NCBI GenBank assembly: GCA_016935615.1
Contig: JAFGQO010000027.1
Coordinates: 1 to 50,531, forward strand
Length of the DNA stretch: 50,531 nucleotides
Reading direction: 5' to 3'
Source of the DNA: Bacteroidales bacterium
Lineage (GTDB): Bacteria > Bacteroidota > Bacteroidia > Bacteroidales > UBA10428
Notes under the pieces: model-generated
What the model was told of the DNA's origin: nothing
The model's database searches: none
What the model saw: only the letters and a program-made list of their open reading frames with translations
Translations under genes and position numbers: made by a program
In this document: positions 45,231 to 48,072 of the stretch, in pieces
How the letters are laid out: each line of letters starts with the position of its first letter
Numbering within the stretch: position 1 is the first letter of the stretch

Positions 45231-46637
45231 TTATATAGTTTTAGCAAGATCAATGGCTTTTTTCAATGCGCCGAGTTTATTATTTACTTCCATGAGTTCA
45301 CTTTTTTCGTCTGATTCGGATACGATTCCTGCTCCTGCCTGATAGAATAATGTATTGCCTTTACTTAAGAAGGTACGTATCATTATGGCATGGTTGAGAT
45401 TGAACTGAAGATCAATAAAACCAATCGCGCCACCATAATAACTTCTCCCCTGGTTTTCATATTTGTCAATGAGTTCCATAGCCTTGTATTTCGGTGCGCC
45501 CGAGAGTGTTCCTGCGGGGAAAGTAGCCATCATCATATCCACGACCTTTGAAGGTTCATTCAGCTTCCCGGAAACTGTAGATACAAGATGAATAACATGG
45601 GAATAGAACTGTACTTCTCGGTAACTGTCCACTTTCACATCTATGCCATGCCTGCTGAGATCATTTCTTGCAAGATCGACCAGCATCACATGTTCGGCAT
45701 TTTCCTTTGGGTCTGCGCAGAGTTGTTTTGCAAGTTCATTGTCCTTTTTGTCATCTCCTGTACGCTTAAATGTACCTGCGATAGGATTGATTATAGCTTT
45801 CCCCTGTTGTATTTTCAATTGTGCTTCGGGCGATGAACCGAAAATCCGGTAATCGCCATAATCAAAATAAAATAAATAAGGAGACGGATTCACAGAACGA
45901 AGAGTCCTGTAAACATTAAAATCGTCTCCCTTGTATTCCTGTGAAAATTGCCTCGACAGAACGATCTGGAAAACATCTCCCCGATAACAGTGTTTTTTTC
46001 CATTGCTGACCATTTCCATGTATTCATCATCAGAGATGTTTGATTGTTCATTGTTCAATGTCTGAAACCTGGCTGGCTCTTTAACATTTTGGTTAAAGAT
46101 CAATGTTTTGATTTCATCAATCCTGCTGGTTTTTCCTTCAAAGATATTTTCGAGGATGATCAGTTCATTTTTAAAATGGTTGATGGCAATTACATACCTG
46201 AAAAAATTGTACCTGACTTCAGGGATTTTATAGGTTTCATGACTCTTTTTATTCAGCTTAATGGTCTCAAAGTGTTGCAAGGCATCATAGCTGGCATATC
46301 CAAATACACCATTTACAAGTGTATTATCTCCATGTTCAACGATGAAAGCACGTATGAACTTATCGAATTTATCACGGAAGTCCTGCACGGAATTCAGGGT
46401 ACTTTCACTCTTTTCACCATCGGGATATTCTTCCGATACAACTCCGTTATCAACCTGAAAAGTTGCTACAGGGTCAAGGCAGATAAAAGAGTATGAATTT
46501 TCATGTCCATGGTAATCAGAGCTTTCCAACAGAAACGAGTACCTGAATTTTTCGTGTACCTGCAAAAATACACTTACAGGGGTAACCATGTCTGCCAGTA
46601 CTTTTTTTGTCGCTAATCTAATTTTATATGTATGCAT
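45231..46637 (-). CDS. trpE: anthranilate synthase component I
   Basis: The 468-residue enzyme converts chorismate to anthranilate, the first committed step. The N-terminal feedback element LLESSDYHGHENSYSF matches the LLES tryptophan-binding motif near residue 36. The catalytic region includes FGSSPEAQLKI, PIAGTFKRTG, ENAEHVMLVDLARNDL and TFPAGTLSGAPKYKAMELI. Its ATG lies 30 bp after the attenuator hairpin, so expression is probably controlled by leader translation as well as by enzyme feedback. Confidence 0.97.
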   Translation of the reverse strand: MHTYKIRLATKKVLADMVTPVSVFLQVHEKFRYSFLLESSDYHGHENSYSFICLDPVATFQVDNGVVSEEYPDGEKSESTLNSVQDFRDKFDKFIRAFIVEHGDNTLVNGVFGYASYDALQHFETIKLNKKSHETYKIPEVRYNFFRYVIAINHFKNELIILENIFEGKTSRIDEIKTLIFNQNVKEPARFQTLNNEQSNISDDEYMEMVSNGKKHCYRGDVFQIVLSRQFSQEYKGDDFNVYRTLRSVNPSPYLFYFDYGDYRIFGSSPEAQLKIQQGKAIINPIAGTFKRTGDDKKDNELAKQLCADPKENAEHVMLVDLARNDLSRHGIDVKVDSYREVQFYSHVIHLVSTVSGKLNEPSKVVDMMMATFPAGTLSGAPKYKAMELIDKYENQGRSYYGGAIGFIDLQFNLNHAIMIRTFLSKGNTLFYQAGAGIVSESDEKSELMEVNNKLGALKKAIDLAKTI

Positions 46638-46666
46638 GTTTTTCTTTTTAATATGGATTAAAATCA

Positions 46667-46700
46667 GAAGCGGCTTACCGTGAGTACGATAAGCCGCTTC
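46667..46700 (-). terminator. trp attenuator hairpin
   Basis: On the minus strand GAAGCGGCTTA (46700-46690) pairs with TAAGCCGCTTC (46677-46667) in an 11-bp perfect stem with a 12-nt loop, followed by TGATTTTAAT. It lies between the trpL stop codon and the trpE start, the place of a Rho-independent attenuator. The U-run is short. Confidence 0.8.
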
Positions 46701-46723
46701 TTGTATTGTATTTATTTTTTACA

Positions 46724-46736
46724 ACAGGGGTCCTGT
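46724..46736 (-). other. small hairpin after the trpL stop codon
   Basis: ACAGG-ACC-CCTGT forms a 5-bp stem two bases after the leader TGA. It could be the pause hairpin or part of an alternative antiterminator fold; I could not resolve the antiterminator by eye. Confidence 0.35.
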
Positions 46737-46737
46737 C

Positions 46738-46797
46738 TCACGTTTTCGGGAGAAATCGGAGCCACCACCACCAGATTGTAAGAAATACTCTATTCAT
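46738..46797 (-). CDS. trpL: trp operon leader peptide, 19 codons with four tandem Trp
   Basis: The ORF ATG at 46797 to TGA at 46738 encodes MNRVFLTIWWWWLRFLPKT. Four consecutive TGG codons at positions 9-12 are what a ribosome-stalling tryptophan sensor needs. An AGGAAAG sequence lies 9 bp upstream, and a Bacteroidota promoter ends 19 bp upstream. The 11-bp attenuator hairpin and trpE follow. It is too short for automatic gene calls. Identification rests on Trp codon density, position and the hairpin; translation has not been shown. Confidence 0.88.
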   Translation of the reverse strand: MNRVFLTIWWWWLRFLPKT

Positions 46798-46816
46798 ATT
46801 GTTTGTTGCTTTCCTG

Positions 46817-46849
46817 CAAAGATATGTTATAATTTTTTAAATAAACAAA
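46817..46849 (-). promoter_or_regulatory. trp operon promoter, Bacteroidota type
   Basis: Minus strand: TTTG at 46849-46846, 21-bp spacer, TATCTTTG at 46824-46817; both boxes match the TTTG / TAnnTTTG consensus. The -33 box begins 2 bp after the clpX stop codon, so trp transcription starts immediately downstream of the clp operon. Confidence 0.8.
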
Positions 46850-46851
46850 TA

Positions 46852-48072
46852 CTAAGCAACCTTTAAACGCTTAATATCTTGTTTTTCAAGTTTTTCAGCT
46901 GCATATTTTTTTGTAATGGTCATCTCTTCCTTATTTCCTTTGGAGGGGAGTTCGAACATTGCATCGATCATAATTGCTTCGCATATAGAGCGAAGTCCGC
47001 GTGCGCCCAATTTAAATTCGATAGCCTTATCCACAACATATTCAAGAACGTTGTCTTTAAAAGAAAGGTTGATTCCGTCCATTTCAAACAACTTGATATA
47101 TTGTTTAATGATCGAGTTTTTAGGCTCGGTCAGGATCCTTCGCAAAGCATTCCTGTCGAGCGGATGAAGGTAAGTGAGAACGGGAAGACGTCCTACGATT
47201 TCCGGGATCATACCAAAGGATTTCAGATCCTGCGGAGCAATGTATTGCAGCAAATTTGTCCTGTCAATTTTATCAGCAACTTTTGAAGCACTATACCCGA
47301 CAACACGAGTGTTCAATCGTTGTCCGATCTTTTTTTCTATTCCGTCAAAAGCTCCTCCGCAGATGAACAGGATATTCTTTGTGTCCACAGGGATCATTTT
47401 CTGATCGGGATGTTTTCTTCCGCCCTGGGGAGGAACATTGATAACAGATCCTTCAAGCAGTTTCAGAAGACCTTGTTGAACTCCTTCTCCCGATACATCA
47501 CGAGTAATGGAAGGATTGTCAGATTTGCGGGCTATTTTGTCAATTTCATCGATGAATACAATTCCTTTTTCAGCAGCTTCAACATTGTAATCAGCTACCT
47601 GCAATAACCTTGTCAGGATACTTTCAATATCTTCACCGACATAGCCGGCTTCTGTAAGGACTGTGGCATCAACAATGGTGAACGGCACGTTCAGCAATCT
47701 GGCAATGGTTCGTGCAAGAAGGGTCTTGCCCGTCCCTGTTTCACCAACCAGAATAATATTGGACTTTTCAATTTCAACATCATCATCTTTCCGGTGATGA
47801 TGCATAAGGCGTTTGTAGTGGTTATAAACAGCTACCGACAGGTATTTTTTTGCCTGATCCTGGCCGATTACGTACAGATCAAGTGAGCTTTTTATTTCTG
47901 AAGGCTTAACAAGTTGTATGGAGTTGATATCAAAATCACCTTTCTTTTTCAGTTCTTCCTGTACAATTTCATAGGCCTGCTCAATGCAATTGTCGCATAT
48001 ATGCCCTGAAATACCGGCAATCAGAAGATTGGTATCACTTTTTTCTCTGCCGCAGAATGAACACCTGTCCAT
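46852..48072 (-). CDS. clpX: ATP-dependent protease ATP-binding subunit ClpX
   Basis: The 406-residue unfoldase has an N-terminal C4 zinc finger ([10 protein letters not shown] with C-x2-C near residues 4-7 and CDNC near 27-30). Walker A GETGTGKT lies near residue 112, and Walker [13 protein letters not shown] near 170. The ClpP-docking loop region and sensor motifs (ARGLRSICE) are also visible. It threads substrates into ClpP. It is last in the tig-clpP-clpX operon, 11 bp after clpP, and the trp promoter follows its stop. Confidence 0.97.

Follow-up and report, generated by a model that had tools for sequence, protein, structure and literature searches.

How transcription of a Bacteroidales trp operon might be switched by the RNA ahead of its first gene is the question raised by the window, by which we mean the whole 50,531-nt stretch of DNA analysed here. 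The original prediction had read a promoter, an open reading frame with Trp at codons 9-12, a hairpin and trpE as the parts of an attenuator, and re-reading of the coordinates confirmed this arrangement: from 46850 to 46637 on the minus strand, where all features described below lie, the order is promoter-like site, leader ORF, hairpin plus short U-tract, trpE. The promoter-like site (46817-46849), identified by direct reading, consists of TTTG at 46849-46846 and TATCTTTG at 46824-46817, which resemble the -7/-33 promoter of Bacteroidota. Of 139 leaders, 82 have the motif TANNTTTG at most 75 nt ahead of the leader start, as compared with a mean of 8.2 and a maximum of 16 in shuffled windows. 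The leader ORF (46738-46797; ATG at 46797, stop codon at 46740-46738) encodes the 19-codon peptide MNRVFLTIWWWWLRFLPKT, in which codons 9-12 are four tandem TGG Trp codons (46762-46773) that, from a reading of the sequence, would be the regulatory ones; the 3.8-Mb genome contains two copies of TGGTGGTGGTGG.

Between the leader and trpE lies a putative intrinsic terminator (46666-46701), followed by a short, weak U-tract, GAUUUUA (46659-46665). Its hairpin was originally described as a perfect 11-bp stem; instead it has 16 pairs, including G-U, with the arms AGAAGCGGCUUAUCGU (46701-46686) and ACGGUAAGCCGCUUCU (46681-46666) enclosing the loop ACUC (46685-46682). The operon's first gene, trpE, assigned from its ORF and Pfam, runs from its ATG at 46637 to 45231, and the Pfam order after it is trpG, D, C, F, B and A, down to 40108. 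Upstream of the trp leader is clpX, whose end is at 46852. The terminator is nearly palindromic, so that model R1 also weakly matches the opposite strand, in the window at 46632-46704 of the plus strand, at 18 of 21 family leaders.

The closeness of the clpX end would allow the hairpin to be no more than the clpX terminator and the Trp ORF to be a chance ORF, and comparison with related genomes bears directly on this reading. A trpE match is present in 21 of the 23 genomes of the window's family; the other two, G009 and G011, have neither the element nor a trpE match. A Trp-rich leader precedes trpE in all 20 family loci that have readable upstream DNA (L023 and L056 have too little, and L024-L028 duplicate L004-L007 and L013), with an imperfect Trp run, W-C-W-W, in L016 and a hairpin broken by Ns in L020. 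A covariance model built from 28 leaders detects the element in 21 of the 23 family genomes (E <= 2.8e-12), 19 of these 21 detected leaders being members of the model and only those of G013 and G014 independent finds. The wider sample comprises 238 genomes of the phylum, 145 of them with TrpE. In the sampled class, which we infer to be Bacteroidia, all 53 other TrpE-bearing members have a leader ORF with WW or W-x-W upstream of trpE, and all 53 upstreams contain a terminator-like hairpin; in two of them, L136 and L137, the ORF has W-L-W only, a pattern uncounted in the chance control described below.

Outside the class, 27 of the 91 TrpE-bearing genomes were examined, and leader and hairpin are retained in 16 of the 27. 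Seven loci (L163, L168, L171 and L178-L181) have no Trp leader within 600 bases upstream of trpE, L161 has a leader with the hairpin undetected, and the ORF of L166 is likely to be false and resembles part of an upstream gene; L182 and L183 were removed as doubtful, and the leader of L182 may be genuine. In two loci whose operons begin with trpB, L040 and L059, Trp leader and hairpin stand before trpB (about 1570 and 1350 bases before trpE, respectively). Thus, the attenuator stays at the front of the operon despite the changed gene order. The chance rate of a short WW ORF followed by a terminator-like hairpin comes from 1.10 Mb of control DNA, made up of 80 loci counted on both strands: there are 19 instances, or 0.010 per 600 nt, and two of the 19 are the genuine leaders of L040 and L059.

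The presence of the leader in 20/20 family and 53/53 class loci indicates that the Trp leader ORF is selected, and this conservation, set against the chance rate, indicates that the element belongs to the trp operon. Every one of the 20 family loci keeps its Trp codons together with the hairpin, where loss of the codons from a persisting hairpin in close relatives had been named as the outcome that would count against attenuation, and attenuation of the trp operon through a leader peptide is well supported by these comparisons. The element is very probably a Trp attenuator; a clpX terminator preceded by a chance ORF, given the 53 class members, the two trpB-first operons and the low chance rate, is very hard to credit.

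A hairpin screen retained 160 of 174 upstreams. The 14 screened out were L020, L058, L059, L083, L090, L161, L163, L166, L168, L171 and L178-L181, of which L020, L083 and L161 nevertheless have a Trp leader and L058 has an upstream of 350 nt only. In L090, a short ORF whose single Trp codon precedes two His codons (W-H-H), and a terminator-like hairpin, can be seen by eye less than 200 bases upstream of trpE, in the place expected for a leader with a Trp run. Removal of L040 (whose real leader precedes trpB), L182 and L183 left 157 leaders, that of L072 being set by hand, and 72 of the 157 are non-redundant. The longest Trp run is four in 13 of the 157, three in 113, two in 27 and one in 4, so that the four-Trp run of the window, which had been thought unusually long, is not exceptional.

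The original prediction also described this class of control as best known from Proteobacteria. A Bacteroidetes class is already catalogued: Bacteroid-trp (Rfam RF01692) is listed for Bacteroidetes in Table 1 of the paper concerned (PMC2864571), in the main text of which a term search finds no 'attenuation', 'leader peptide' or 'tryptophan'. RF01692 resembles the element of the window in its phylum, its position before trp genes and its first hairpin, and model positions 1-131 align end to end with the window from 46820 to 46688, with a score of 35.5 bits that lies below the 49-bit cut-off. At this cut-off none of the 23 family genomes passes, nor do any of 11 loci in a further set; 3 of 20 other class loci do (L107, 67.4 bits; L111, 56.5 bits; L104, 54.4 bits). 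The model ends as an unpaired tail inside the 5' arm of the terminator and lacks the leader-terminator pairing discussed below. The open-access literature that we searched yielded no description of an antiterminator for Bacteroid-trp. We regard the element as a variant close to this catalogued family and of the classical kind.

The E. coli Trp leader model (RF00513) gives no match to the window at E up to 10, and as a control scores 93.1 bits at the E. coli locus L184. It also gives 35.6 bits, against a cut-off of 41, upstream of trpE in L145 (genome G188, a class member), a similarity that may reflect convergence, transfer or chance. Among the 12 Rfam matches to the window at E up to 10 there is no covariance-model match to a T-box, and those to mir-299 and mir-268 were judged to be chance hits on the hairpin. 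Actinobacterial trp attenuators have leaders with double or triple UGG and conserved complementary triples that link antiterminator and terminator, and are termed classical attenuators (PMC1262725); tandem UGG codons and complementarity to the terminator, in the window that of a candidate antiterminator, are what they share with the window. In Flavobacterium psychrophilum, which belongs to the same phylum as the window, 'strong clues' that leader peptides ahead of amino-acid operons act by attenuation are reported, in passages that give no mechanism; by term search, 'tryptophan' is absent from the main text of that paper (PMC9723704). Small ORFs of B. thetaiotaomicron have been called reminiscent of attenuation leader peptides in a paper whose main text lacks 'trp' (PMC7366714). 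For histidine, no short ORF with HHHH followed by a terminator was found in the genome of the window among 20 of the 23 matches; by eye, hisG there seems to follow another ORF.

We considered which structures the leader RNA could form. It folds far better than dinucleotide shuffles (z -5.64), and its minimum free energy (MFE) fold consists of one long imperfect hairpin and the terminator, with the Trp codons and the bases preceding them in the 5' side of the first hairpin. This fold and covariation together define segment A, UUACAAU (46775-46781), on the 5' side of the first hairpin and its partner, segment B, GUUGUAA (46719-46725), on the 3' side. In the alignment, A:B is paired in 82.5% of cells and 20 cells are changed on both sides; its covariation score is reached by 0 of 500 shuffles and its count of both-sided changes by 34 of 500. 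Over 69 leaders the complementarity of A and B has a z of 5.3. A possible pairing of B with an A/U-rich stretch ahead of the terminator was seen by eye, is weak and was excluded from the count. The terminator stem is paired in 94.9% of cells, with both-sided changes in 9 of 15 counted pairs.

Full-length folding thus gives a first hairpin and a terminator and no antiterminator, as the original prediction had anticipated, and a complementarity scan was undertaken for this reason. Here comparison departs from the fold, and yields a conserved, covarying candidate for the mutually exclusive structure that had not been obvious. Across the family the loop of the terminator is conserved, and a segment around the leader stop codon is complementary to it. 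In the window this segment, C, is CGUGAG (46737-46742) and overlaps the stop codon; from pair counts with its partner and permutation tests, it is the candidate 5' strand of an antiterminator. The complementary segment D, CUCACG (46679-46684), is made up of the last three bases of the terminator loop and the first three of the 3' arm.

In the alignment of 28 leaders, C:D is paired in 83.9% of cells, as against 26.7-43.7% in slid controls. Five of nine pairs are changed on both sides, and three of these five lie in the loop, a position outside the constraint of the terminator stem. The covariation score of 0.143 is reached by 0 of 500 shuffles and the number of pair types is matched by 36 of 500, figures that are not probabilities since the shuffle control ignores relatedness. 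With D slid by -2 there are still four both-sided pairs and a score of 0.108 versus 0.143, and both terminal pairs of the helix are poor, with 19 of 26 unpaired in one and 8 of 28 in the other. Examples of the pairing include CCGUGAG with CUCACGG in L006, CCGAGAG with CUCUCGG in L036, CCGUAA with UUACGG in L035 and, in the Chitinophaga locus L047, CGCUGUGUA with UACACAGCG. In L007, L011, L012 and L030 segment C is retained and the stop codon is elsewhere. The window's own C:D helix has 6 bp and taken alone is not significant (p 0.149). Comparison of aligned sequences thus supports all three putative helices, A:B, C:D and the terminator, and C:D is very probably a real, selected pairing.

Does the same complementarity extend beyond the family? 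We scanned the 72 non-redundant leaders in 20-nt windows against the terminator. With positions counted from the last Trp codon, windows that begin at +5, +10, +12 and +15 nt reach p <= 0.05 in 18, 33, 27 and 20 of the 72, respectively, and at +10 the own score is 18.2 versus 13.3 for shuffled sequence; the excess is slight at 0 and +20 and absent before the Trp codons and from +25 on. In other words, the complementarity is concentrated about 5-35 nt past the last Trp codon. The match of each C to its own hairpin beats re-paired sets of the 72 leaders (z 13.9, 0 of 10,000), and individually 25 of the 72 leaders reach p <= 0.05. From the last Trp codon to the start of the candidate antiterminator strand the median distance is 15-17 nt (19 in the window), so that the strand lies close to where a ribosome held up on Trp would have its leading edge. 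Its position follows the last Trp codon better than the stop codon: in an unrestricted search from the ATG, matches scoring at least 21 (19 of 72) have an SD of 3.0 nt from the last Trp and 8.1 from the stop, and at a score of at least 19 (33 of 72) the SDs are 8.1 and 11.6, raised by outliers. A search for C around the stop codon only was set aside, as it misses leaders with a distant C, such as L030 and L105.

The part of the terminator that is matched distinguishes the window from E. coli trp. The E. coli trp attenuator has, like the window, a tandem-Trp leader peptide, a terminator and trpE, and its antiterminator strand stands at a distance of 14 nt from the last Trp codon, against 19 for the candidate strand of the window; its antiterminator match, however, lies in the 5' arm of the terminator, and that of the window in the loop and 3' arm. 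Among the six E. coli controls, trp, his, phe and thr match the 5' arm (phe and his including loop bases), leu is ambiguous, its best match being to the loop/3' arm through a self-complementary GCGC, and the best match of ilv is to 7 nt of the 3' arm; the strand follows the regulatory codons by 14 nt in trp, 41 in his, 25 in phe, 18 in ilv, 11 in leu and 8 in thr. The four 5'-arm controls, together with 5'-arm matches in other Bacteroidota leaders such as L072 (GGGGCUU with AAGCCCC), raise the alternative that the true antiterminator of the window is of the E. coli type and that the match of C to loop and 3' arm is incidental. Over the 72 leaders, taken without selection by class, the loop with the first 7 nt of the 3' arm nevertheless gives a z of 11.1 and the 5' arm 7.1, with 5.4 for the loop alone and 1.1 for the 3' arm alone; moreover, loop positions covary with C, and of 19 leaders in the window's family 18 have their best match in loop and 3' arm, the remaining one having a spanning match. 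An incidental match beside a 5'-arm antiterminator therefore appears improbable.

The two z values indicate that both arrangements are real, as complementarity. The best match is to loop and 3' arm in 78 of the 157 leaders; in family f6 it is so in 22 of 25. Families f4, f5, f11 and f12 have 5'-arm matches in 10 of 11 leaders, f3, f7 and f10 are mixed, the 5' arm is the target in Chitinophagaceae loci such as L060, L063, L067 and L068, and outside the class the 5' arm is matched in 10 of 16 and loop with 3' arm in 4 of 16. The strand is at the same position in the lineages with a 5'-arm target, which suggests a possible change of the targeted side in the course of evolution.

We suggest the following model for the switch. 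When charged tRNA-Trp is plentiful, the ribosome would reach the stop codon and cover C, so that the terminator forms. When Trp is scarce, the ribosome would stall on the Trp codons, blocking A:B and leaving C just ahead of it; C could then pair with D once D leaves the polymerase, capturing the loop and the upper 3' arm while the remaining 3' arm is still inside the polymerase, and nucleation of the terminator would be blocked and the trp genes transcribed. Without translation, A:B would tend to keep C in its loop, and termination would be the default. Ribosome-mediated attenuation of trp transcription, with switching among A:B, C:D and the terminator, is, in our judgement, the likely and best explanation of the locus.

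Folding with a masked ribosome is consistent with this model under defined conditions. When the transcript is truncated at the end of D, a cut point that was set by the match, and the ribosome front is assumed to cover 12 nt, P(C:D) in the window is 0.00 with no ribosome, 0.90-0.98 with the ribosome on the Trp codons and 0.00 with it at the stop, and E. coli trp, taken through the same steps, behaves alike (0.00, 0.98 and 0.00). In the 78 leaders with a loop/3'-arm match the corresponding means are 0.43, 0.92-0.93 and 0.02, the first of which indicates that in many leaders A:B sequesters C incompletely. When the full-length window leader is folded with nested pairs only, the terminator wins in all states, with P(C:D) 0.00 even with a stalled ribosome, and the mean of the loop/3'-arm leaders with a stalled ribosome is 0.05-0.06; L037 is an exception, with 0.93 when the ribosome is on the first Trp codon. 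The switch must therefore be mainly kinetic. The hairpin of the window has -26.0 kcal/mol, and -18.9 with D blocked.

Terminator pairs left below C:D number 9 in the median (range 3-13) and could form as a pseudoknot. Together with the outcome of the full-length folds, these remaining pairs would suit a different role for a real C:D, as a pseudoknot atop an intact lower stem that tunes pausing, termination or ribosome-polymerase timing and is not an antiterminator. Against this, C occupies the same position as in the leaders that match the 5' arm, so that a single function is simpler, and termination promoted by a stalled ribosome would invert the regulation. We consider such a tuning pseudoknot unlikely, if worth keeping in mind, and lean towards C:D acting as the antiterminator. 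We infer that the loop/3'-arm pairing prevents termination, and the energetics leave doubt on this point. Whether a large part of Bacteroidota, with the window's family among them, uses an antiterminator that captures the loop and upper 3' arm, and so blocks nucleation rather than sequestering the 5' arm, we regard as evenly balanced. The earlier suspicion of a switching mechanism unlike that of E. coli thus gains support, in the sense that another part of the terminator would be targeted.

This proposal supplies a specific switching model for an element that Rfam covers as a leader hairpin only, and its loop/3'-arm arrangement is new as far as the literature searched extends. If capture of the loop and 3' arm works, antitermination would not require sequestration of the arm that is transcribed first, which would change how such switches are to be searched for. 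The lineages with one or the other arrangement provide a natural comparison. One locus outside the class, L164 (genome G210), has 13 nt of unbroken leader-terminator complementarity that spans the 5' arm, the loop and the 3' arm.
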